From Hufsiella ginkgonis (GTDB lineage: Bacteria > Bacteroidota > Bacteroidia > Sphingobacteriales > Sphingobacteriaceae): a stretch of 64,000 nt of DNA. Below, in pieces: positions 37,514 to 61,688 of this stretch (its first letter is position 1; every line of letters starts with the position of its first letter). The stretch is from contig NZ_WVHS01000001.1 in assembly GCF_009834915.1 (NCBI RefSeq), forward strand, positions 372,001-436,000, written 5' to 3'. The notes under the pieces were generated by a model. That model had not been told where the DNA came from and did not search any database. It saw nothing but the letters and a program-made list of their open reading frames with translations. A program made the position numbers and the translations under genes.

Positions 37514-38962
37514 ATGAAAAAGAAATTTATATATACCATACTCATGGCAGCCGGCTTGGTAGCAGGATGCCAGAAGGACCTGCTTACCCCGGAGTCGAAA
37601 AACGCCGTTTCTACACTTGATCTTGCCCAGTTTTCTACTACCGCACGTATCGACGGACAGGTACTCGGCTTATACGCAGGTTTACGGTCGGGTGACTTTT
37701 ACGGCGGCCGCTACCTGATCTATAACGAGCTTAGAGCCGATAACTTCCTGGCACAAAGCTCCAACTCCGTAACAGCCTACCAGACTTACAACTATACCGT
37801 GGGAAATGGCGCGCAGGAAGTTACCGACTTTTGGTCGTCTGCTTACAACACCATTAACCGTTGCAACTTGTTTATCGAAGGCATGGCCGCAAAAGGCACC
37901 TCGGTAATCGGCGATGCCATCTCCAAAAACTATGTGGGTGAAGCAAAATTCATCCGCGCGGTTTGTTACTACAGCTTGCTCCAGTTATACGCCCGTCCGT
38001 ATTACGATGGTAACGGCGCTAAACCGGGCTTACCTTTAAGGTTAACCGGGAACTCTGTAGCGGGAAATTATGACCTTGCCCGGAGTACCGTAGCGCAGGT
38101 ATATACACAGGTGCTTAAAGACCTCGACGAGGCAGAAACAGGCGTGCCGCTAACTTATGCCACCGCACTGGCGTCGACCACCAGGGCACACCGCAACTCG
38201 GTTATCGCTTTCAAAACGAGGGTATACCTTACCATGCAAAGATGGACCGACGTGGTAACCGAAGCGAATAAGATCGTTTCTACCGCTGCGCCGTTCACTG
38301 CCACCACTGGCGTCGCCAACGCGTTACAAGCCGATTATACGAAAGTATTCGCCAGCCCTTATACTACTACAGAGTCCATCTTTTCGATGCCTTTTGTTGC
38401 GGGCACCGAGCAGGGCGGCGGCCAGAGCGCATTAAGCTCTTATTACTATGGCGTTAAATTATACTCGTTAAACCCGACTGGTATCATTGGCGACGCCGGC
38501 TGGAAAGCTACTGATAAAAGGAGGACGTATATCACTTATACAGGCGCTATCCCATACCTGTCAAAATTCCCTACCGGATCGCCAACCTACGCAGATTATG
38601 TTCCCGTGATCAGGTACGCTGAAGTATTGTTAAACCTGGCCGAAGCGCTTGCCCGGAGCACCACGTCGGTAAACACCCGCGCACTGGCTTTATTAAACGC
38701 CGTAAGAGGTCGTTCTGACGCAAGCACGGTATTTACCGCTGCTGACTTTGCGACACCGGGGGATTTTTACAACGCCATCCTGAAGGAGAAAAATATCGAA
38801 TTCCTTGGAGAAGGTCTGAGAAGCCCCGAGCTGCTTCGTCTTGGACTTACCATCCCGGGAAAAGGTACGGTTTCTGCTGTTCCATCTACGTCTATCCAGT
38901 ACATATTCCCTATTTCGGCCACGGAGCTGATCTACAACAAGCTGATGACAGACAACTTATAA
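37514..38962 (+). CDS. SusD/RagB family nutrient-binding outer membrane lipoprotein
   Basis: A 482-residue lipoprotein: signal peptide with lipobox LVAGC, then classical SusD features such as FWSSAYNTINRCNLFIEG, EAKFIRAVCYYSLLQLYARP and, near the C-terminus, NAVRGRSDAST and EKNIEFLGEGLRSPELLRLG. It belongs to the main SusD family, unlike the SusD-like type 2 partner of the first pair. It starts 21 bases after its SusC gene, so they form one operon. Confidence 0.94.
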   Translation: MKKKFIYTILMAAGLVAGCQKDLLTPESKNAVSTLDLAQFSTTARIDGQVLGLYAGLRSGDFYGGRYLIYNELRADNFLAQSSNSVTAYQTYNYTVGNGAQEVTDFWSSAYNTINRCNLFIEGMAAKGTSVIGDAISKNYVGEAKFIRAVCYYSLLQLYARPYYDGNGAKPGLPLRLTGNSVAGNYDLARSTVAQVYTQVLKDLDEAETGVPLTYATALASTTRAHRNSVIAFKTRVYLTMQRWTDVVTEANKIVSTAAPFTATTGVANALQADYTKVFASPYTTTESIFSMPFVAGTEQGGGQSALSSYYYGVKLYSLNPTGIIGDAGWKATDKRRTYITYTGAIPYLSKFPTGSPTYADYVPVIRYAEVLLNLAEALARSTTSVNTRALALLNAVRGRSDASTVFTAADFATPGDFYNAILKEKNIEFLGEGLRSPELLRLGLTIPGKGTVSAVPSTSIQYIFPISATELIYNKLMTDNL

Positions 38963-52541: not shown

Positions 52542-52613
52542 GGCCCTGTAGTTCAACGGATAGAATAGGCGTTTCCTAAACTCTAGATATGGGTTCGATT
52601 CCCGTCGGGGCTA
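52542..52613 (+). tRNA. tRNA-Arg (anticodon CCT)
   Basis: A 72-base cloverleaf: acceptor GGCCCTG/CGGGGCT with discriminator A (52613), D-stem GTTC/GAAT, anticodon loop TTCCTAA with CCT at 52575-52577, and T-arm ATGGG-TTCGATT-CCCGT. CCA is not encoded. It reads AGG codons. The anticodon stem GGCGT/ACTCT has a C-T mismatch at the middle pair and a terminal G-T wobble. Its 3' end faces a tyrosine integrase 240 bases on, so it is the likely attachment site of the island. Confidence 0.93.
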
Positions 52614-52626
52614 CTTAAAATGGATT
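52606..52626 (+). other. Probable attL core at the tRNA-Arg 3' end
   Basis: Tyrosine integrases of Bacteroidota islands commonly recombine at tRNA 3' ends. The acceptor arm CGGGGCTA followed by CTTAAAATGG, with the integrase just beyond, fits this. No matching direct repeat is visible further right in the window, so the far end of the island was not found. Confidence 0.5.
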
Positions 52627-52853: not shown

Positions 52854-54067
52854 ATGAAAACAAACGTGAGCGTGCTTTTTTACCTTAAGAAGCCAAGAAA
52901 CTATGAAGCAGGGCCGATGCCTATTTACATGAGAATTACGGTGGAATGTAACCGGACGGAGTTATCAGTTGGTCGGGAGTGTGATCCCAAAAGATGGAGT
53001 TCGCATTCGGGGCGGGCGATTGGAACGAAGGAAGAATACCGGTCGTTGAATGCGTACCTGGACAGCTTGCAAACGAAGATGTATGACGTGCATCACTTCC
53101 TGCTGCAGACTGGGGAGACGATTACGTGTGAGGCGTTGAAGAACAAGTTCACCGGGAAGGTTGAAAAGCCTAAGCTATTGATCGAGATTTTCGAAGGGCA
53201 TAACAGCAATGTGTCGGCGCTCTTGGGGAATGGCTTCGAGCCGAACACCTTGAAAGGATATCGTACTACAGTGAACCATTTAAAGCTATTTATAAAGCAT
53301 AAATATGCTGCGAAAGATGTTCCGCTTACGCGGCTGGATCACGGATTTATCACTGGCTTCGAATTCTACCTGCGCTCGAAGCTAAAGGTGAGTGCAGTGA
53401 CTGCTGCCAAGTACATTAAGAATTTAAAGAAAGTGGTAAACATCTGCATGGCGCATGGATGGGTGGATAAGAATCCGTTTGCGCATTACAAATCCACGGC
53501 TAAGGCTGTCGAGAAACAGTTCCTTACACAGGATGAATTGGATGCGATCAGCAACAAAACGCTGAAGATGGAACGGCTGGCACAAGTGCGGGATATTTTC
53601 CTGTTTAGCTGCTATACGGGTTTGGCCCATGCGGACGTGGAAAAGCTTAAGCGTTCGGAGATCGGGATTGGCATTGATAGGGAGCAGTGGGTATTTACCA
53701 ACAGGAAAAAGAATGATTCGTCATCGAGGGTTCCGCTGTTACCGGTTGCTAAACGGATAATGGATTCCTACGAGGGTCATCCGAAGTGCGATAACTCAGG
53801 ATTGGTGTTACCAGTATTAAGCAATCAAAAGATGAATGCCTACCTGAAGGAGATCGCGGAGCTGTGTGAGATTAGTAAGCCGCTAACTTTCCATATTGCC
53901 AGGCACACGTTGCGACCACAGTAACGCTGTCGAATGGAGTGCCGATTGAGACGGTGAGTAAGATGTTGGGGCATAGTAGTATTAAGACGACGCAGCATTA
54001 TGCGAAGATTTTGGATAGGAAGGTGAGTGAGGATATGAAAATGCTGAGGAACAAGCTCGCTGGATGA
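52854..54067 (+). pseudogene. Bacteroidetes-type tyrosine integrase, frameshifted before the catalytic Tyr
   Basis: The first 356 residues have an N-terminal arm-binding domain (VSVLFYLKKPRNYEAGPMPI), a SAM-like core-binding domain and most of the catalytic domain (IFLFSCYTGLAHADVEKLKR and FHIARHT). One base is missing at about 53910, giving a premature stop at 53922. After the gap the frame continues ATTVTLSNGVPIETVSKMLG then HSSIKTTQHYAKI to a TGA at 54065-54067, so the Tyr lies beyond the break. As written, the integrase is inactive; a sequencing error is also possible. The absent first-motif Arg (TGLAHAD) is normal for IntDOT-like enzymes. Confidence 0.9.
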
Positions 54068-54226: not shown

Positions 54227-55189
54227 ATGATAACCCACACACACATGTTCACACTTCAAGAAGCCACTTCCGAATTTTTAAATTATTGCCGGTACGAAAA
54301 AAACCTCAGTCCCAAAACGATCAAGTTCTATAGGATCGACCTGACGCAGCTTGCTGCGTTTCTTTCAGCAAACAATCTCTCAGCTAACGTTAGCGAAATA
54401 AGTAAGATCCAACTGCGGCCCTACCTGGAATCGCTTTCCACGCTCAAACCAAAATCCATCAAGAGGAAAATGGCTACGCTAAAAGCGATGTTTAATTACC
54501 TCGAATTTGAAGACAAAATTGCTGCGAACCCGATTCGTAAAATGCGGATTAAGTTTAAAGAACCATTTGTGTTGCCAAAATCGTTAAGTCTGAATGAAAT
54601 AGTAAACATCTTTAAATCAGCATACCAATTGCCTGCTGGAGGTATCGATTCACATTCCTATATGTGTAAAATCCGCGATATATCGGTGATGGAATTACTT
54701 TTTGCAACAGGGGCACGGGTTTCCGAAATTGCGAATCTGAAAGAAAATGACATCGATCTTTTAACCGGTTCGGTCAAAATTGAGGGAAAGGGTGGCAAAG
54801 AAAGGATTATACAGATATGCAATCCCGACGCCCTTGCGATCATTAGAAAATACAAAGAGGCTTACGGTGGCCAGATCGAGTCCTCCGGGGGCTACCTGCT
54901 TGTAAACCGGCTGAACAAACGGCTTAGTGATCAATCGATAAGGAGCATTGTTCGGAAATTATCATCTACTGCCAGTATTAATAGGCACGTGACGCCTCAC
55001 GTTTTTCGACATTCATTTGCGACGCTATTACTGGAAAACGATGTAGATATCAAGTACATCCAATTTCTGCTTGGGCATAGTTCGATTACAACCACCCAGA
55101 TTTACGTTCACGTAAACGGTGAAAAACAAAGACAAATCCTTCTTGCAAAGCATCCTAGAAAGGATCTTTCATTTCCTATTGAGGGTTGA
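54227..55189 (+). CDS. XerC/D-like tyrosine recombinase, intact; candidate inversion enzyme
   Basis: A 320-residue site-specific recombinase with a SAM-like core-binding domain (about 10-95, SEFLNYCRYEKNLSPKTIKF) and a catalytic domain carrying every conserved residue: Arg in ATGARVSEIANL, Lys in GKGGKERI, His/Arg in HVFRHSFATLL, His in LLGHSSITTTQ and the Tyr in QIYVHV. It lacks the long arm-binding domain of the neighbouring integrase. The start may be GTG 54218, ATG 54227 or ATG 54245. Its TGA (55187-55189) runs into a 26-bp repeat present inverted 3.4 kb away, which makes it the obvious candidate to invert that segment. Confidence 0.9.
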   Translation: MITHTHMFTLQEATSEFLNYCRYEKNLSPKTIKFYRIDLTQLAAFLSANNLSANVSEISKIQLRPYLESLSTLKPKSIKRKMATLKAMFNYLEFEDKIAANPIRKMRIKFKEPFVLPKSLSLNEIVNIFKSAYQLPAGGIDSHSYMCKIRDISVMELLFATGARVSEIANLKENDIDLLTGSVKIEGKGGKERIIQICNPDALAIIRKYKEAYGGQIESSGGYLLVNRLNKRLSDQSIRSIVRKLSSTASINRHVTPHVFRHSFATLLLENDVDIKYIQFLLGHSSITTTQIYVHVNGEKQRQILLAKHPRKDLSFPIEG

Positions 55190-55214: not shown

Positions 55215-57633
55215 GTTTATTAATCGGAAGGACGACATTTTGTTCCTAAGGAAGGACTTTGTCGCCACAAACAACCAAAGTAGATTTATTGTACTGGCGG
55301 CACCTACGGGGATCGGCAAGTCGGGATTAGTTGATCAGGCCTTTGCCGACAACGATTTCTTTATCCGCGTTAAGATCGCCAAACATGATAGCTCCAAAGA
55401 CGTTCCTTATTTGTATTTAAAGGAACTGGCGAGAGCAATTAGCCTGTCGAGCCTTCGCGGCTCAGCGTTTCCGAGTTTTAGAGATCATGTGGTTACAAAA
55501 GAACGATCATTGGTTAACACCTTCAGGCATATACTTGCAGATGTTGCAACCAGCAACAGCATAGCGAACAGTGCTGAACTCGGCCGTGTCCTTAAGGATT
55601 CCAAAGATACCACTACTTTGATAAACCTTCTTTTTAATGAGGAATACAATGATTCAATCGGATTTGCGTACCGGTACATCCAGGAAGTATTAAAAGAACG
55701 GAGAGTAGCGGTCTCCATTGAGAACATTCAAAATATTGACAAAGAATCGCTTAGTTATTTTCATGAATTTCTCTTGTCGTATTCGACGCTATACCTGATC
55801 GGGGAGTATACTACCGACAATAAATACCAGATATCAACAACAGATCTTTTAAGTTATTGCTCGGCACCTGGCGTAAAAGCTGATCTTATAGATCTCAACA
55901 AATTGTCAATAGACGAGATATTGCGCGAGTATAAAAATGTGCCCGATATCATATTTAGAATATTAAAGAACAGTTATGAGCAGTCATCCGGCAATCTACA
56001 TCATTTGCAGGTGCTGGTCTCTGATCTGACAGAGAAGAAGATCACCGAATACCCGGAGAATATTAAATATGACCAGGTTATCAGCAATGAGTTAAACACG
56101 CTTTCTACCGATGAGTCGTTTATCCTGTCGCTGGTGATTGCACATGGTGGGAAGGTTGATACGGATATCTTAAAGAGTGTATTGTTAGGCATAGAAGACG
56201 AGTACTTACTTAAGTTTGATATGGCCTCGGTAAATGAAATGATATCGAATCTTGTTTATAAAAAGTTACTGGTAGAGGATGACATCACCATTGCAACAGC
56301 CCAGGATAGCGTGATAGAAAAGGCGCTTGAAAGTATCTCGCTAAAGAAGTACTTTTTCCTGAGCTACAAGAGCTGGCTCGGCTTTTATCAGAAAGTGGAT
56401 AATAGCGGCAATGATGCGAATTTGCCCAAATCCGAGGTGTTATCCTGGCAGATATTATTCAAAGCGCTTCTCAACGATTTAACAGGAATCGTGGAACTTC
56501 TTAATGAAATACATAAGCTCAGCTTATTAAGCATCACGCCTCGCCGTGCAATCAAGTACCTCGAAAAGGTAAAGGAAGTTATCGGGAAAAACTTTCATGC
56601 TACAAATCAGCAGACGCTTACCGAACGGATAAACCATAAAATTACCCAGATCCTATACCGGTTGTGGTTATTTGAGGATATCCCAAAGTATACTTCTGCA
56701 CATCTAGATAACCTGTCGATGTTCTTGTACCATACTTCGTCTTTAGCGGTTATAGGAAGGTCTGACGAAGCCATTGCGTTATGTACAACGAGGCTTGGCG
56801 AAACAGACCGGCAAGAGGCAGGCGGGATACTGCTGGTGAGAATTGCAGCGTACCGGTCATCGAACAGGTACGACGAATGCGAAGAGGAATGGCTCCGGCT
56901 GTATAACGAAGGGGTATATGATGGAACGAAATACGAGGGGATATTTCTGCAATGCTCAGATATCGCGTTGCTGTCTCATCATGAACTGAGGCTCTCGTGT
57001 TTGCAAAAGGCAATCGAAATATTCAGGCAAGAAGAAAATTCACTGAATGAGATTTCAGCACGGGTTGCCTATTCGCAACAATTGGGTTATGATGGGAACC
57101 TGGAGGAGGCCGAAGCGCATTTGGCAATAGCCAGAGAGAAAAGTCAACTGCATTTCGCTGGCTTATACTGCATTTCGAATAATCTTTGTGTCCTGAAGCT
57201 CCAGAAAAAAGAGTCATCCAGGGAGATTATCGAGAAATTACGTATTGCGCTCAGGTCATGTGAAGCCGCGCTTGACAGGTTTATCTTGTTAAATAACCTG
57301 CTTGTTGCCCAAAGCATGATGGGATTCACGGGCGATGCCGAGGCAACGTTAAAAGTAATCGACCAGCAAATCAGCAGGAATGAAGTAGCAGACTTCGACT
57401 TGCAACGTATCGCGCTGTTTAACGCATCTGTGCATTACAACAGAAATAACAGCCCGGATTGGGGGGAGTACTATTTATCTGAAGCCAGAAAACTTCCTTT
57501 ATTGTGTGATTTTCGCTACTGGAATTATAAGCTCTATGGTCAAAAAGAGGATAATTGGAATGAATTCCGGTTTCAATTGGACTACTATCCAATCCACCTT
57601 ACTTATTGGCATTTCGACTTTGATAACCTTTAA
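55213..57633 (+). CDS. P-loop NTPase with C-terminal helical (TPR-like) repeats, STAND-like
   Basis: An 806-residue protein of unrecognised family. Near the N-terminus NRKDDILFLRKDF precedes a Walker A motif, APTGIGKSG (residues 30-38), and a Walker-B-like strand VAVSIENIQNID lies at about 165-176. A helical winged-helix-like region follows (about 280-370). The last ~350 residues read as TPR-like repeats (DEAIALCTTRLGETDRQEAG; NLEEAEAHLAIAREKSQLHF). This plan, an NTPase followed by a repeat sensor, is that of STAND regulators and defence proteins, but no effector domain is visible. The start is ATG 55213 inside the 26-bp repeat; a TTG at 55186 is less likely. Its 3' end overlaps the convergent ATP-grasp gene by 35 bases. 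The region is AT-rich compared with the chromosome to the left. Confidence 0.75.
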   Translation: MFINRKDDILFLRKDFVATNNQSRFIVLAAPTGIGKSGLVDQAFADNDFFIRVKIAKHDSSKDVPYLYLKELARAISLSSLRGSAFPSFRDHVVTKERSLVNTFRHILADVATSNSIANSAELGRVLKDSKDTTTLINLLFNEEYNDSIGFAYRYIQEVLKERRVAVSIENIQNIDKESLSYFHEFLLSYSTLYLIGEYTTDNKYQISTTDLLSYCSAPGVKADLIDLNKLSIDEILREYKNVPDIIFRILKNSYEQSSGNLHHLQVLVSDLTEKKITEYPENIKYDQVISNELNTLSTDESFILSLVIAHGGKVDTDILKSVLLGIEDEYLLKFDMASVNEMISNLVYKKLLVEDDITIATAQDSVIEKALESISLKKYFFLSYKSWLGFYQKVDNSGNDANLPKSEVLSWQILFKALLNDLTGIVELLNEIHKLSLLSITPRRAIKYLEKVKEVIGKNFHATNQQTLTERINHKITQILYRLWLFEDIPKYTSAHLDNLSMFLYHTSSLAVIGRSDEAIALCTTRLGETDRQEAGGILLVRIAAYRSSNRYDECEEEWLRLYNEGVYDGTKYEGIFLQCSDIALLSHHELRLSCLQKAIEIFRQEENSLNEISARVAYSQQLGYDGNLEEAEAHLAIAREKSQLHFAGLYCISNNLCVLKLQKKESSREIIEKLRIALRSCEAALDRFILLNNLLVAQSMMGFTGDAEATLKVIDQQISRNEVADFDLQRIALFNASVHYNRNNSPDWGEYYLSEARKLPLLCDFRYWNYKLYGQKEDNWNEFRFQLDYYPIHLTYWHFDFDNL

Positions 57634-58618
57634 TACAGTTCTCGATCAATAGACGGATAACCGAATGATAGTTAAATCCGCCCTCCGCTATAAAAGTGCC
57701 CGCAAATTCTGAATCTGCACCGAGGTGAGTATCGGGAGTTAACTCGATAACCGAGAAGTCAGTCCCCTTTAGCCGCCCGTCGATACGCATGAACTCCACT
57801 TTGTCGAGATAGGCAAACAAGTCGAAGCACCTTTGTAAGGTGTCGTCAGGTATTTGGGCCGTAACAGATCGCAAGGCGAGGGGCAATGTGTCAGACTTTT
57901 TCTCGATGTAGGTATAAAGTCTGTGTTCGAAATAATTAACATCATCTTCCAGATATCGCTCTGCGGCAGCCCAGTTATGCACATCACGGCCCTGTCCGAT
58001 CAAGCATATTGAAACCTCTTTTCCCGGGATGAACTCTTCTATCAGGATTGTTTGTTGAAATTCCTCTTTTAATGCCCTCGCAATAAGAATTGCGTCAGAT
58101 AAATTCGAAACGAGGTTATTTGGCCCGATTCCAAGCGAAGTGCCTTCGAAGGCAGGCTTTACAACACATGGAAACTGCAGATACCCAGCCAAATGGTCAT
58201 CTAGCGGCGAATTCCAAATAGCAAAATTGGGAGTGGCCAAATTCAATTCCTTACATAGCAACTTCGAAACATGCTTATCATTGCAAACGGCTTTGGTATA
58301 CGCATCCGCACCAACGTATTTAATATTGGAGGCCTCACAAATAGCAGGTATTAAAGCATGCCTGTTCCTTGATTTTTCGCCAAACCAAAATGGGAAAACA
58401 AGATCATCACGATGTTTCATGTTATTTACTATCAACTCCTGCGGGCTGTTGTAGAGAATAACATTTGGATGAATCTCCTGTAGTGTTTGAAATAAATGCT
58501 CAACATAGTGAGGATGAGGCTTATCCAGGTCTCTGTCGTAGATATTCATTTCCCGGGCGGGGTCTTCAACTCTATCGGCGATCAGGACAATTGAACTAAT
58601 TTCTTTCTGAAATTGCAT
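57599..58618 (-). CDS. D-alanine-D-alanine ligase-like ATP-grasp protein
   Basis: A 339-residue ATP-grasp enzyme of the Ddl type: GADAYTKAVCNDKHVSKLLC at the central-domain border, lid KPAFEGTSLGIG, EEFIPGKEVSICLIG, then RIDGRLKGTDFSVIELTPDT as the metal site. The Glu is present, but the Asn usually two residues after it (ExN) is Thr (ELT), so activity or metal binding may differ. It is not next to cell-wall genes, so a specialised ligase is more likely than housekeeping Ddl. It is convergent with the P-loop gene and begins directly after the right copy of the 26-bp repeat, which therefore serves as its leader. Confidence 0.8.
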   Translation of the reverse strand: MQFQKEISSIVLIADRVEDPAREMNIYDRDLDKPHPHYVEHLFQTLQEIHPNVILYNSPQELIVNNMKHRDDLVFPFWFGEKSRNRHALIPAICEASNIKYVGADAYTKAVCNDKHVSKLLCKELNLATPNFAIWNSPLDDHLAGYLQFPCVVKPAFEGTSLGIGPNNLVSNLSDAILIARALKEEFQQTILIEEFIPGKEVSICLIGQGRDVHNWAAAERYLEDDVNYFEHRLYTYIEKKSDTLPLALRSVTAQIPDDTLQRCFDLFAYLDKVEFMRIDGRLKGTDFSVIELTPDTHLGADSEFAGTFIAEGGFNYHSVIRLLIENCIKGYQSRNANK

Positions 58619-58644: not shown

Positions 58645-58908
58645 TGCATAAATATAAAAATTCTCGGCAGTGAATTTCAAGTAATTAAAGCATCTTGTAG
58701 TTTAACTCCAATTAGACCGGCAAGGATTGTATTCTCCCGTTAATATTAAGTTTTTCGTATTAATTTGGGTCAAACAGCGTCTGTCTTATACACAACAATA
58801 AAAAAGTATTTCTCTAAGCGGCTAACTTAACACAAGATTATCAGCCTAAGAAAAACACTCGTAACCGGCAAGTTCTGATTTTTTTTGACCATATGTTCAC
58901 CGCACACC
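58645..58908. other. AT-rich gene-free spacer
   Basis: No credible gene is visible in this AT-rich stretch. It carries the candidate promoter at 58649-58680 and a TTTTTTTT run near 58880, and leads into the large palindrome at 58909. Confidence 0.5.
58649..58680 (-). promoter_or_regulatory. Candidate promoter outside the inverted repeat, reading into the ATP-grasp gene
   Basis: On the minus strand a TTG (58680-58678) is followed after 21 bases by TATATTTA (58656-58649), seven of eight positions of TAnnTTTG. It sits outside the repeat, so whichever gene lies at this end of the segment would be transcribed from it. Confidence 0.4.
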
Positions 58909-59089
58909 CCACCATTGCCATTTGCTAAGCCGATCACCTGAAGCTGCCGGGCTACAAGGCAAGGCTTTTTGCAATTTTTTACTACCCGGAGCGGAGCCAA
59001 GGGTGGAGAAAAAATTACAAAAACCCGCAGGGCTTGGCCTTGACTGTACAGCCCGGCAATCAGAACTTTGCTGCGGCAAATGGCGGTGG
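58909..59089. repeat. Large imperfect palindrome (about 180 bp)
   Basis: Arms of about 85 bases pair imperfectly around a centre near 59000. The outer pair is CCACCATTGCCATTTGC (58909-58925) with GCAAATGGCGGTGG (59076-59089), the middle TGCCGGGCT (58945-58953) with AGCCCGGCA (59050-59058), the inner TTTTTGCAATTTTTT with AAAAAATTACAAAAA. It could be a structured RNA, a long terminator, a transfer or replication site, or a MITE-like insertion. It sits just past the 3' end of the HEPN gene. Short frames within it are not credible proteins. Confidence 0.65.
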
Positions 59090-59100
59090 AGTAAAATAAG

Positions 59101-60543
59101 TTATAACTCGCCGATGTCGAATACCTTCATCCGTTCATCGAAAACGTTTCTTGCCGTGCTTAATACTTGCTGAACCCTGTCCATTAGCACCTGGATATCA
59201 TCACCCCCTATTTTATAATCCGCCAGGTAGCGTGCATCCAAATAAGCATCTTCTAGCAACTTTAACAACCGCTCTTCTTGCTCGGTATCGGCGGGAAAAA
59301 TCTCGTTGAGTTGTGGAGCCAATTTTCTATTGAGTTTTTTGAGCGATCGCAATGAGTGCGTTTTCCGTTCCATCCCGTATAAGGCAATCGCTATCGTCCG
59401 GAAGGTAGATTCAGTGGCTTGTTGTAGCATGAACATTGCCATGGCCGAATCATTTGCTTCGCGGTGAAATCTCGCACCAGCGTAGAAACTCGTGGCCTTA
59501 TCAATACCCAAATTAAACTCGTGAGTTGCTTTTGCCACAATGGCACCAAACAATCCTATAGGTAGCACAGGTAGTTTTGCGGTGCTATCCTGATAAATCA
59601 GGTTTGCTTTGGTGCAAACTAATGAGAGATAAACATGCCCGTTGCTAAGTGCCTGGGTAAGTGCGGAAGACTTATGCAGCGAGCAAGAAATCTTTTCGCC
59701 TTTAACCGTACAAAATTCGGCCACTGCCTCCAACTCTTCGAATGACGGACAATTTTTATCCGGTATCACAATTAGTAGATCGGTATATCCATCATCCGCT
59801 GCGCCTTTAATTAATGGGTGAATTACACGGAAAATCATTTCGGGTTCGATAGCAGCTATAATGAGGTCAATGATAGGCGTAAGGCGACTTTTACTGATCG
59901 GCTTACTACGGCGACCATAGAAGCCAGGGCCACCCCCATCATCAGTTTTGCAGTGAATAAGGTGACATGCTTCGAGAAGCATTTCCAGTAATTCATACTG
60001 TTCAACCTCTAAACACTGGCCGGTTGCCTCGCAAATACTCATTTTCCCGAGCCCGTACTCTAGCCAGCCATTTAGAATAACCTTCCATTCCTCGTAGCTG
60101 TAATTGGCAAAAAATTGCCTGATAGCAATAATCGGTTGTTCCGCCTCGGCTAAGCTTAGTCGCCGGATAGTATTGTTGTATCGGTCGTGTACCTGTTCGA
60201 GATCGAGCAGGTATTGCCGATCAGCCTCGTTACGCTGGCGAGAAAATGGTTCATAGTTGGTATTTGGTATATCCAGCCCTTCGGCTTCAGCTACATTCAA
60301 CATCAGCCTGCCTGCCGTGATCAGTTTCGTAAGCAATTTATCCAAAAGGAGAACGCCCGAAGGATCGCCCATAAACGACCACGGCCTCGAAATAGTTACC
60401 GCCTTTAGGAGCTGCCACAACTCCAGGCGTATATATTCAAAATCCGAAGCCTCAAATACTTCGGCTATCAGCTGGTGAGCTTGCGCTAATTGTTCATCGT
60501 GGCTCAATGGGATTACCATGGACCGTGTTTGAATATTTTCCAT
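59101..60543 (-). CDS. HEPN-domain protein with central nucleotidyltransferase-like region
   Basis: A 480-residue protein beginning MENIQTRSMVIPLSHDEQ. The C-terminal ~130 residues fit a HEPN domain: AMFMLQQATESTFRTIAIAL followed by ERKTHSLRSLKKLNRKLA, with Rx(4-6)H-like spacing near RKTH, and YLDARYLADYKIGGDD. The middle (about 270-360) includes YTDLLIVIPDKNCPSFEELE and ISCSLHKSSALTQAL, resembling a nucleotidyltransferase (MNT) fold. HEPN domains are often RNases in toxin-antitoxin or defence modules; the ribonuclease motif is not certain here. I use ATG 60543 because the upstream extension to 60609 is unconserved-looking. A small XRE regulator gene is divergent, 115 bases away. Confidence 0.75.
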   Translation of the reverse strand: MENIQTRSMVIPLSHDEQLAQAHQLIAEVFEASDFEYIRLELWQLLKAVTISRPWSFMGDPSGVLLLDKLLTKLITAGRLMLNVAEAEGLDIPNTNYEPFSRQRNEADRQYLLDLEQVHDRYNNTIRRLSLAEAEQPIIAIRQFFANYSYEEWKVILNGWLEYGLGKMSICEATGQCLEVEQYELLEMLLEACHLIHCKTDDGGGPGFYGRRSKPISKSRLTPIIDLIIAAIEPEMIFRVIHPLIKGAADDGYTDLLIVIPDKNCPSFEELEAVAEFCTVKGEKISCSLHKSSALTQALSNGHVYLSLVCTKANLIYQDSTAKLPVLPIGLFGAIVAKATHEFNLGIDKATSFYAGARFHREANDSAMAMFMLQQATESTFRTIAIALYGMERKTHSLRSLKKLNRKLAPQLNEIFPADTEQEERLLKLLEDAYLDARYLADYKIGGDDIQVLMDRVQQVLSTARNVFDERMKVFDIGEL

Positions 60544-60621
60544 ACATTCGCTTTTACAGCAAATGACGGAGGCGACGGTTCCGTACCAAACCGCTTTCAC
60601 CTGTAACAAGCCAGCCCGTTC

Positions 60622-61085: not shown

Positions 61086-61688
61086 TCAGATTGTAACCTG
61101 ATTCCTTTTTACAAAACTCGATACAGTAAGCCTATGTACACCTAAAATTCTACCTATAGCACTATAAGAGACCTTTTTGCATAATAACTCTTGAATTTTT
61201 TTCTCTTGGCCTGTAAGTTTTGTTTTTGAGGATTTTCTTCCTACCGGTCTCCCCAAAATAACACCTTCGGCCTTTTTCCTAGCCAATGCTTCTTTCGTCC
61301 TTTGAGATATAAGATTTCTTTCAATTTCCGCTGAAAGTCCGAAAGCAAATGCTAATACTTTAGAATTAATATCGCTACCTAGCCGGTAGTTATCTTTAAT
61401 AGTCCATACCTGAATATCTCTGTTCATACATTCGTTGAGTATGCCCATAATCATCAGCAGGTTTCTGCCTAAACGCGAGAGCTCTGAACAAATGAGAATA
61501 TCTCCTTTGCACATTTTTCTTAGCAGTTTTCCAAGTTTTCGATCTTGCAGTTTTTTTGCGCCTGAAATAGTTTCTTCAATCCATTTGTCTACCACATACA
61601 CATTGGTTTGGCAAAACTTGTTGATTTCGTAGCGTTGGTTTTCTACTGTTTGTTTGTCTGTGCTTACGCGAATGTAACCGTAAATCAT
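61086..61688 (-). CDS. Mpi-type serine recombinase / DNA invertase
   Basis: A 200-residue serine recombinase closely resembling the Bacteroides fragilis master invertase Mpi, which flips many promoters: IYGYIRVSTDKQTVENQRYE with the catalytic Ser in RVST, LSRLGRNLLMIMGILN, the signature FAFGLSAEIERNLISQRTKE, and a C-terminal helix-turn-helix (YSAIGRILGVHRLTVSSFVK). It looks intact. Possible targets are invertible promoters elsewhere in the genome; none is obvious in the window. It ends 28 bases from the XRE stop (convergent). A 16-bp palindrome lies 76 bases upstream. Confidence 0.9.
   Translation of the reverse strand: MIYGYIRVSTDKQTVENQRYEINKFCQTNVYVVDKWIEETISGAKKLQDRKLGKLLRKMCKGDILICSELSRLGRNLLMIMGILNECMNRDIQVWTIKDNYRLGSDINSKVLAFAFGLSAEIERNLISQRTKEALARKKAEGVILGRPVGRKSSKTKLTGQEKKIQELLCKKVSYSAIGRILGVHRLTVSSFVKRNQVTI

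Follow-up and report, generated by a model that had tools for sequence, protein, structure and literature searches.

Hairpin-forming DNA elements dispersed among Bacteroidota mobile elements and their probable action as single-stranded-DNA promoters

What is the role of a long imperfect palindrome that lies between two minus-strand genes of Hufsiella ginkgonis? The palindrome is located near the right end of a stretch of 64,000 nucleotides (contig NZ_WVHS01000001.1, positions 372,001 to 436,000), referred to here as the window, and all coordinates without another source are positions in it. A preliminary description had considered the palindrome too long and too diverged for a simple terminator and had proposed a structured RNA, a transfer origin or a MITE-like element linked to Bacteroidota mobile DNA. 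The palindrome proved to be real. Its arms are inverted as described, with 18 nt at 58963-58980 and 59009-59026 being 89% complementary, and shorter inverted blocks are present besides these and a 14-nt outer pair. The region 58880-59120 folds with a predicted energy of -81.5 kcal/mol (z = -2.96), which was equaled by 1 of 200 dinucleotide shuffles. The extent is slightly greater than first thought, since the genome contains a second copy (G000:C1:797970-798166), which aligns over 58900-59094 with an identity of 87-89%, depending on gap costs. The alignment of the two copies, which are 367 kb apart, ends on both sides in flanks that are unrelated. The parts of the element and the neighboring genes are as follows.

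58900-59094, plus strand: whole element, defined by homology; the strand that folds is the plus strand, which is also the template for the gene to the left
58912-58925, plus strand: left arm of the outer stem, pairing with 59076-59089 (14 nt, 86%)
58965-58980, plus strand: left arm of the A/T stem, which covaries among copies, including whole-run A-to-T swaps
58982-59006, plus strand: apical hairpin CTACCC..GC-GGA-GC..GGGTGG with a conserved T.G wobble
59009-59025, plus strand: right arm of the A/T stem, from inverted-arm pairing and covariation
59024-59032, plus strand: side hairpin CCC-GCA-GGG with a GNA triloop (family pattern CCC-GNA-GGG)
59040-59042, plus strand: -33-like TTG, 20 nt before the -7-like box, read from the sequence and the family pattern
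59063-59070, plus strand: -7-like box GAACTTTG, with one mismatch to TAnnTTTG, read from the sequence and the family pattern
59076-59089, plus strand: right arm of the outer stem, pairing with 58912-58925
57599-58618, minus strand: ATP-grasp gene with a D-Ala-D-Ala ligase C-terminal domain (PF07478, E 6e-13), the gene that the element would serve
59101-60546, minus strand: HEPN-domain gene (PF05168, E 8e-12), with its stop codon ending 6 nt past the element
52542-52614, plus strand: tRNA-Arg adjoining an integrase gene at 52854, a possible left end of a mobile element

A simple terminator is ruled out by this multi-part fold of apical hairpin, A/T stem, side hairpin and outer stem, as the preliminary description had expected. 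The copy in the window is flanked by the tRNA-Arg and integrase genes on the left and, at a distance of 8.6 kb, by a relaxase gene on the right. An exact repeat of 14 bases from the tRNA end, which could mark an attachment end, was looked for and not found. The window also contains a gene for a serine recombinase (PF00239) with an HTH-like C-terminus at 61086-61688, near the HEPN gene and a gene for a Cro-like HTH protein. Near the second copy in this genome is a separate hairpin (TTTAGTTTACCAAAA ... TTTTGGTAAACTAAA; L002 1144-1212).

A dispersed family in the Bacteroidota

The palindrome belongs to a dispersed family found in mobile elements of the Bacteroidota, so the suspected link to mobile DNA of this phylum was well founded, and copies at other loci, for which the preliminary description had advised a search, occur both in the same genome and in others. 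The search for the family covered genomes of Bacteroidota as well as collections of viral, phage and plasmid sequences. Two covariance models were used, R1, which describes a 67-nt core and was built from ten copies, and R2, a second model; the window element scores 74.3 bits with R1 and 58.7 bits with R2 (L141 10962-11027). The core consists of AATACTACC...GGTGGAGATT on the A/T stem, and the lower stem varies freely yet stays paired. R1 matched 31 of 395 genomes of the class (E <= 0.01). R2 matched at least 19 of 395 genomes taken from the phylum (E <= 0.001), all 19 of them in the class of the window, and since this search scored about 11 candidates per genome and missed the copies of the window's own genome, its genome counts are lower bounds. 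Matches were found in 4 of 100 relatives with the own genome included; among 300 genomes of the order, 6 contained an exact core pattern, and a reversed control pattern found none. Copy number is low, with two copies in the own genome and one to five matches in the other genomes found in the R1 search of the class.

The main set used below comprises 57 matches in 50 sources (40 fetched contexts, 8 earlier ones, the window and locus L019). An independent set of copies that were not used in model building was drawn from the viral_contigs and plasmid collections; it consists of 35 R2 matches, the 6 weakest of 41 having been dropped, and 32 of these are non-duplicate. Neither phages nor plasmids gave a BLAST match to the window element, and a relative (L008) matched one plasmid and no phage. 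Two sequence patterns were discarded. The pattern TGCAATTTTTTACTACCC in genome_contigs hit four loci, three of which (L003, L005 and L006) had no R1 match and the fourth of which (L004) was a Bombilactobacillus contig. The first pattern applied to viral_contigs hit three loci that by eye lacked the surrounding structure and appeared to be chance hits. Near one family copy is a below-threshold match to the Flavo-1 RNA (L015 1934-1994; RF01705, 33.6 bits with a cut-off of 42).

The strand that folds and the boxes on its 3' arm

Compensatory changes, which the preliminary description had named as a check on the palindrome, are plentiful. The stem covariation score for the 57 copies is 0.304 compared with 0.092 for shuffled alignments and 0.05-0.10 for slid structures, and none of 500 shuffles scored as high, with the qualification that the alignment was fitted to the structure of the model and so leans towards that structure. 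Double changes occur in 17 of 20 stem pairs. The plus strand, the template for the next gene, is the more stable strand in 52 of 57 copies with DNA energies and in 53 of 57 with RNA energies (p about 1e-9 and below), although part of this result is bias as the models were built on the plus strand with G-U pairs allowed, which favors that strand in fold and wobble counts. In four flank controls the plus strand folded better in 34/56, 26/56, 32/57 and 34/56 cases (p 0.05, 0.36, 0.08 and 0.04), so that two of the four lean slightly towards the plus strand too. The lower stem contains 25 G.T against 8 A.C pairs, and 50 of the 57 copies retain a T.G pair in the apical hairpin stem.

GNA triloops are unusually stable in DNA. 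The side hairpin has the form CCC-GNA-GGG in 25 of 57 copies, where N is A in 10, T in 6, C in 5 and G in 4, and takes the form CCT-GAA-AGG or CCG-GAA-CGG in 4 more; the sole other CCCnnnGGG at this place is a single CCC-ACC-GGG. Pairing farther out was assessed by swapping arms between copies. For the outer junction stem, 52 of 85 own pairs reach 7 complementary bases compared with 13.8% of swapped pairs. For a clamp beyond the -7 box the figures are 50 of 68 and 24.6%, and part of this effect is attributable to composition since a control window also exceeds its swapped mean (26 of 67 own pairs against 17.1%). Pairing of the spacer is weakly supported, with runs of 7 or more in 13 of 68 own pairs against 9.2% of swapped ones and a control window that is likewise above the swapped mean.

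One study (PMC7366714) gives the promoter consensus of the Bacteroidota as TAnnTTTG, with TTTG near -33. For transcription towards the left-hand gene the 3' arm of the hairpin is the non-template strand, and a promoter box must therefore be on that arm. Of the 46 copies with a downstream gene, 35 carry TAnnTTTG on the folded strand in the 150 nt that follow the core on its 3' side (4.3 expected), and of all 57 copies 44 do (5.0 expected). In the independent set the box occurs in 27 of 32 copies (0.5 expected) and in none on the other strand. Duplicates aside, the box was found at 35-95 nt in 68 of 89 elements. In the main, short spacing class a TTG precedes the -7 box by a spacer of 19-23 nt in 40 of 54 elements, with a peak at 21-22 nt (29 observed, 2.3 expected), while a TTG at 19-23 nt is present in only 3 of 14 elements of the long spacing class. 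The order of the boxes on the 3' arm is that needed by a hairpin promoter, and boxes of the host sigma factor are located on the non-template arm. Across the 68 elements, the predicted pairing with the left arm falls to 0.37 at the A of the -7 box and reaches 0.65-0.90 in the clamp from +8 to +25. Between the core and the start codon, TAnnTTTG was found in 1 of 46 copies (5.4 expected), which is weak evidence given that only 36 of 180 regions upstream of ordinary genes contain it (12.6 expected).

These data bear on the proposal of a structured RNA. A conserved structure of a single strand is indeed present, and an RNA leader in the downstream mRNA, like the radC and STAXI motifs of Weinberg and colleagues, would fit the proximity of the start codon (a median of 122 nt from the core), gene classes resembling those of the two motifs, and a second hairpin that on the mRNA strand is a UNCG tetraloop. 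The RNA part of the proposal fared less well, as the wobble and the boxes are on the strand opposite the mRNA. The mRNA strand is the less stable of the two in 52-53 of 57 copies, the conserved T.G wobble becomes C.A on it, and in the 150 nt before the core the sense strand has TAnnTTTG in 0 of 46 copies, the conserved boxes pointing the opposite way. Rfam gave no match at positions 57-61 kb of the window (E <= 1) or at the elements in 8 loci (E <= 5). An RNA leader is thus very unlikely to be what the family represents.

The same boxes could instead form an ordinary double-stranded promoter that reads rightward, with the hairpin upstream of the promoter, as TTG-N21-TAnnTTTGC on the plus strand follows a standard Bacteroidota promoter pattern (consensus in PMC7366714). 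The genes are mostly on the wrong side for such a promoter. A right-hand gene on the plus strand lies within 300 nt in 7 of 55 cases, whereas the left-hand gene is the nearest ORF within that distance and in the predicted orientation in 37 of 55; in the independent set the corresponding counts are 2 of 23 and 12 of 23. In 25 of 55 cases the right-hand gene is on the minus strand and ends towards the element, and the covarying hairpin would be left unexplained. A duplex promoter as the function of the family is therefore very improbable. It nevertheless counts against a single-stranded promoter that these boxes, once double-stranded, would make up a promoter reading rightward, and no role for one is apparent.

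Genes and mobile elements adjoining the copies

The nearest downstream ORF is within 400 nt and in the predicted orientation for 45 of the 57 copies, near and in the other orientation for 8 and far away for 4, where ORFs were called mechanically and some neighbors are thus spurious. In the independent set the predicted orientation was found for 20 of 32, the other for 9, a distant ORF for 2 and none for 1. This fixed arrangement bears on the suggestion of a MITE-like or other passive repeat, which the two similar copies with unrelated flanks in the own genome might favor. The preferred gene side and distance recur in many bacterial families, promoter boxes are present, copy number is low, and no target duplication was seen by eye at the two own-genome copies; a passive repeat is an extremely remote prospect.

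Downstream genes tested with Pfam encode SSB, RadC, PcfJ, ArdA, DUF6943 and putAbiC proteins, and genes for DUF932, SSB, RadC, ArdA and PcfJ are typical of entry by conjugation. A DUF932 gene is among the first three downstream ORFs in 10 of 57 copies, each of them matching PF06067 and one (G136) having an internal stop. In 30 genomes, 20 of which had been chosen for holding the element, 21 DUF932 matches were found in 14 genomes, and 14 of the 21 loci hold a model match, 13 at E <= 2e-7 and one weak (E 0.003). In the other ten genomes, 3 of 5 DUF932 matches are with the element, the weak one included. Of the seven loci lacking an accepted model match, four were examined more widely and showed no clear element, and of the other three, two are broken or located at the start of a contig. 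A tblastn search for DUF932 in plasmids at 1e-60 gave no match.

The gene after the element carries a DUF6943 motif in 19 of 57 copies, one of which was Pfam-tested. Several loci (L062, L063, L070, L073, L086, L091 and others) are small recurring islands of the element, a DUF6943 gene and facing genes that encode either a membrane-like protein of about 75 aa and a protein of about 250 aa or a DUF6266 protein. The one protein of about 250 aa that was tested had no Pfam or PHROGs match, PHROGs and PDB yielded nothing useful for the island proteins, and tblastn of DUF6943 in phages gave no match. It is possible that these islands are an undescribed mobile element. Two loci, L072 (G496:C30) and L081 (G369:C28), have three and two element copies, respectively, within 12 kb on one strand, and in each locus two copies precede DUF932 and RadC genes, resembling the two Frpo copies of plasmid F. 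At L022 3400-7636 the element precedes a Gabija-like pair, an OLD-like TOPRIM/AAA gene (Pfam) and a UvrD-like helicase gene (by eye).

Within 65 kb, the relaxase gene is co-directional with the element on 9 of the 11 contigs that hold both (20 genomes searched), the exceptions being the window, where the relaxase gene runs the opposite way, and G092:C25. The relaxase gene is about 8.6 kb from the element in the own genome, and the ten further contigs in the comparison have distances of about 9-62 kb. Copies are thus upstream of operons and mostly far from the relaxase gene, which speaks against the proposed transfer origin; by way of exception, a DUF5712 mobilization gene is no farther than about 0.5 kb from the element at L019 and about 2.3 kb from that at L198. 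The ICE regions L145 and L146 both have the element and leading gene in the direction of the relaxase gene, across a tra operon that was identified by eye. No PF03432 relaxase was found in three of the genomes that have copies with the DUF6943 motif (G507, G377 and G609), and not all copies need therefore be in conjugative elements. As a general rule relaxase genes enter the recipient last, and on this basis the folded strand would be the transferred strand.

The element is also present in CTnDOT-like elements. Bacteroides fragilis NZ_OR675140, which carries tetQ, rteC and mobABC, has a copy at 55061-55133 (found by BLAST and without a model score) that precedes a PcfK/PcfJ/DUF3873 operon just past the tra genes and in the same direction as mobABC, and another at 38370-38430 that precedes a putAbiC gene beside DUF5712/BfmA mobilization genes. 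The PcfK/PcfJ/DUF3873 operon also follows R2 matches in Bacteroides finegoldii NZ_OY725915 and in Parabacteroides distasonis NZ_OY725750, where it too lies past tra genes, and an R2 match in P. distasonis NZ_CP072211 is followed by an annotated PcfK gene. The RteR small RNA of CTnDOT is presumably encoded just after traQ, kilobases from the element copy.

Taken as a whole, the family probably acts as a single-stranded-DNA promoter that would work like Frpo and be its counterpart in the Bacteroidota. While the conjugative or mobilizable element is single-stranded, the folded strand, which would be the transferred one, would form the hairpin. The 3' arm, as non-template strand, would present the -33 and -7 boxes of the housekeeping sigma factor, and RNA polymerase would use the hairpin to transcribe the 5' arm towards the left-hand gene before second-strand synthesis. 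Conversion to double-stranded DNA would then switch the promoter off, and the genes would probably be read while the element is a single strand, for example just after entry into a new cell. Frpo is described in PMC7736820 as both a promoter and a priming site, and up to three copies of the element occur within one fetched region, either of which would suit a site whose first role is single-strand priming or strand conversion (ssi/sso) with transcription secondary. The fixed orientation near a start codon (45 of 57) is unnecessary for priming alone, and that order of roles is very unlikely.

The window copy is atypical of the family. Its -7 box GAACTTTG has the form GAAnTTTG, which it shares with L025, L020 and L027, and the start codon of the ATP-grasp gene is 344 nt from the core. 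Given the imperfect box and distant start codon, this copy is possibly a relic; it may still drive the ATP-grasp gene, but we lean towards doubting it. The second copy in the genome has no close gene in the right orientation.

Comparison with known single-stranded promoters and conserved motifs

Single-strand promoters have so far been worked out, in accessible papers, for enterobacterial plasmids. The family of folded DNA switches described here is apparently new to the literature, as judged within open-licence PMC papers; among these, no title on the Bacteroidota came up in connection with Frpo, single-strand promoters or leading regions, and Fusobacterium papers turned up. In the main text of the Nature leading-region paper (PMC11541004), "bacteroid" occurs zero times. 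A Bacteroidota counterpart would explain expression of SSB, anti-restriction and DUF932 genes on arrival of CTnDOT-like elements, and would make the question of which genes are early a searchable sequence signature. A broader claim, which we think rather unlikely, is that the Bacteroidia have a broad class of single-strand promoters of their own, which are hairpins read by polymerase with sigma-ABfr and occur in resistance-spreading CTnDOT-like elements and DUF6943 islands alike, and that STAXI-like motifs are perhaps the same thing read on the wrong strand. The last point derives from the complement of C-UUCG-G containing the DNA triloop C-GAA-G. If the broader claim were true, the DUF6943 islands would represent a mobile element not yet described that passes through a single-stranded stage.

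STAXI (RF01728) and radC (RF01754) are, like the present family, conserved structures, and STAXI is also located beside SSB and anti-restriction genes. Unlike the family, both are listed from Proteobacteria and Enterobacteriales; the authors argued from its UUCG loops that STAXI acts as RNA, and radC is listed as an RNA (all from PMC2864571).

The hairpin promoters of phage N4 resemble the family in being template-strand hairpins with a short loop that are read by a polymerase, but they are much smaller and are used by a phage polymerase.

The closest likeness is to Frpo/ssi of plasmids F and ColIb-P9, which is a long imperfect hairpin of the template strand upstream of ssb, has promoter boxes that are rebuilt in the fold (PMC9849209 and PMC11541004) and is present in more than one copy per leading region. 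Frpo of F is by position also upstream of a DUF932 gene, and the leading region of F has a similar set of genes (ssb, DUF932 and anti-restriction). Two regions of F, upstream of ssb and upstream of the gene before the DUF932 gene, match by position the Frpo2 and Frpo1 (with ygeA/ygeB) described in PMC9849209. Their template strands fold better than their sense strands (-100.7 vs -93.5 and -93.2 vs -86.1), the regions being 89% identical to each other and hence non-independent cases. A crude scan of Frpo for -35/-10 boxes gave no clear result, and R2 had no match at E <= 5 in the F leading region (50-66.5 kb), so that homology to Frpo is unsupported by this model and the likeness would be one of action. 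The Bacteroidota family differs from Frpo/ssi in having sigma-ABfr-type boxes rather than -35/-10 boxes and in its conserved core, AATACTACC..GGTGGAGATT.
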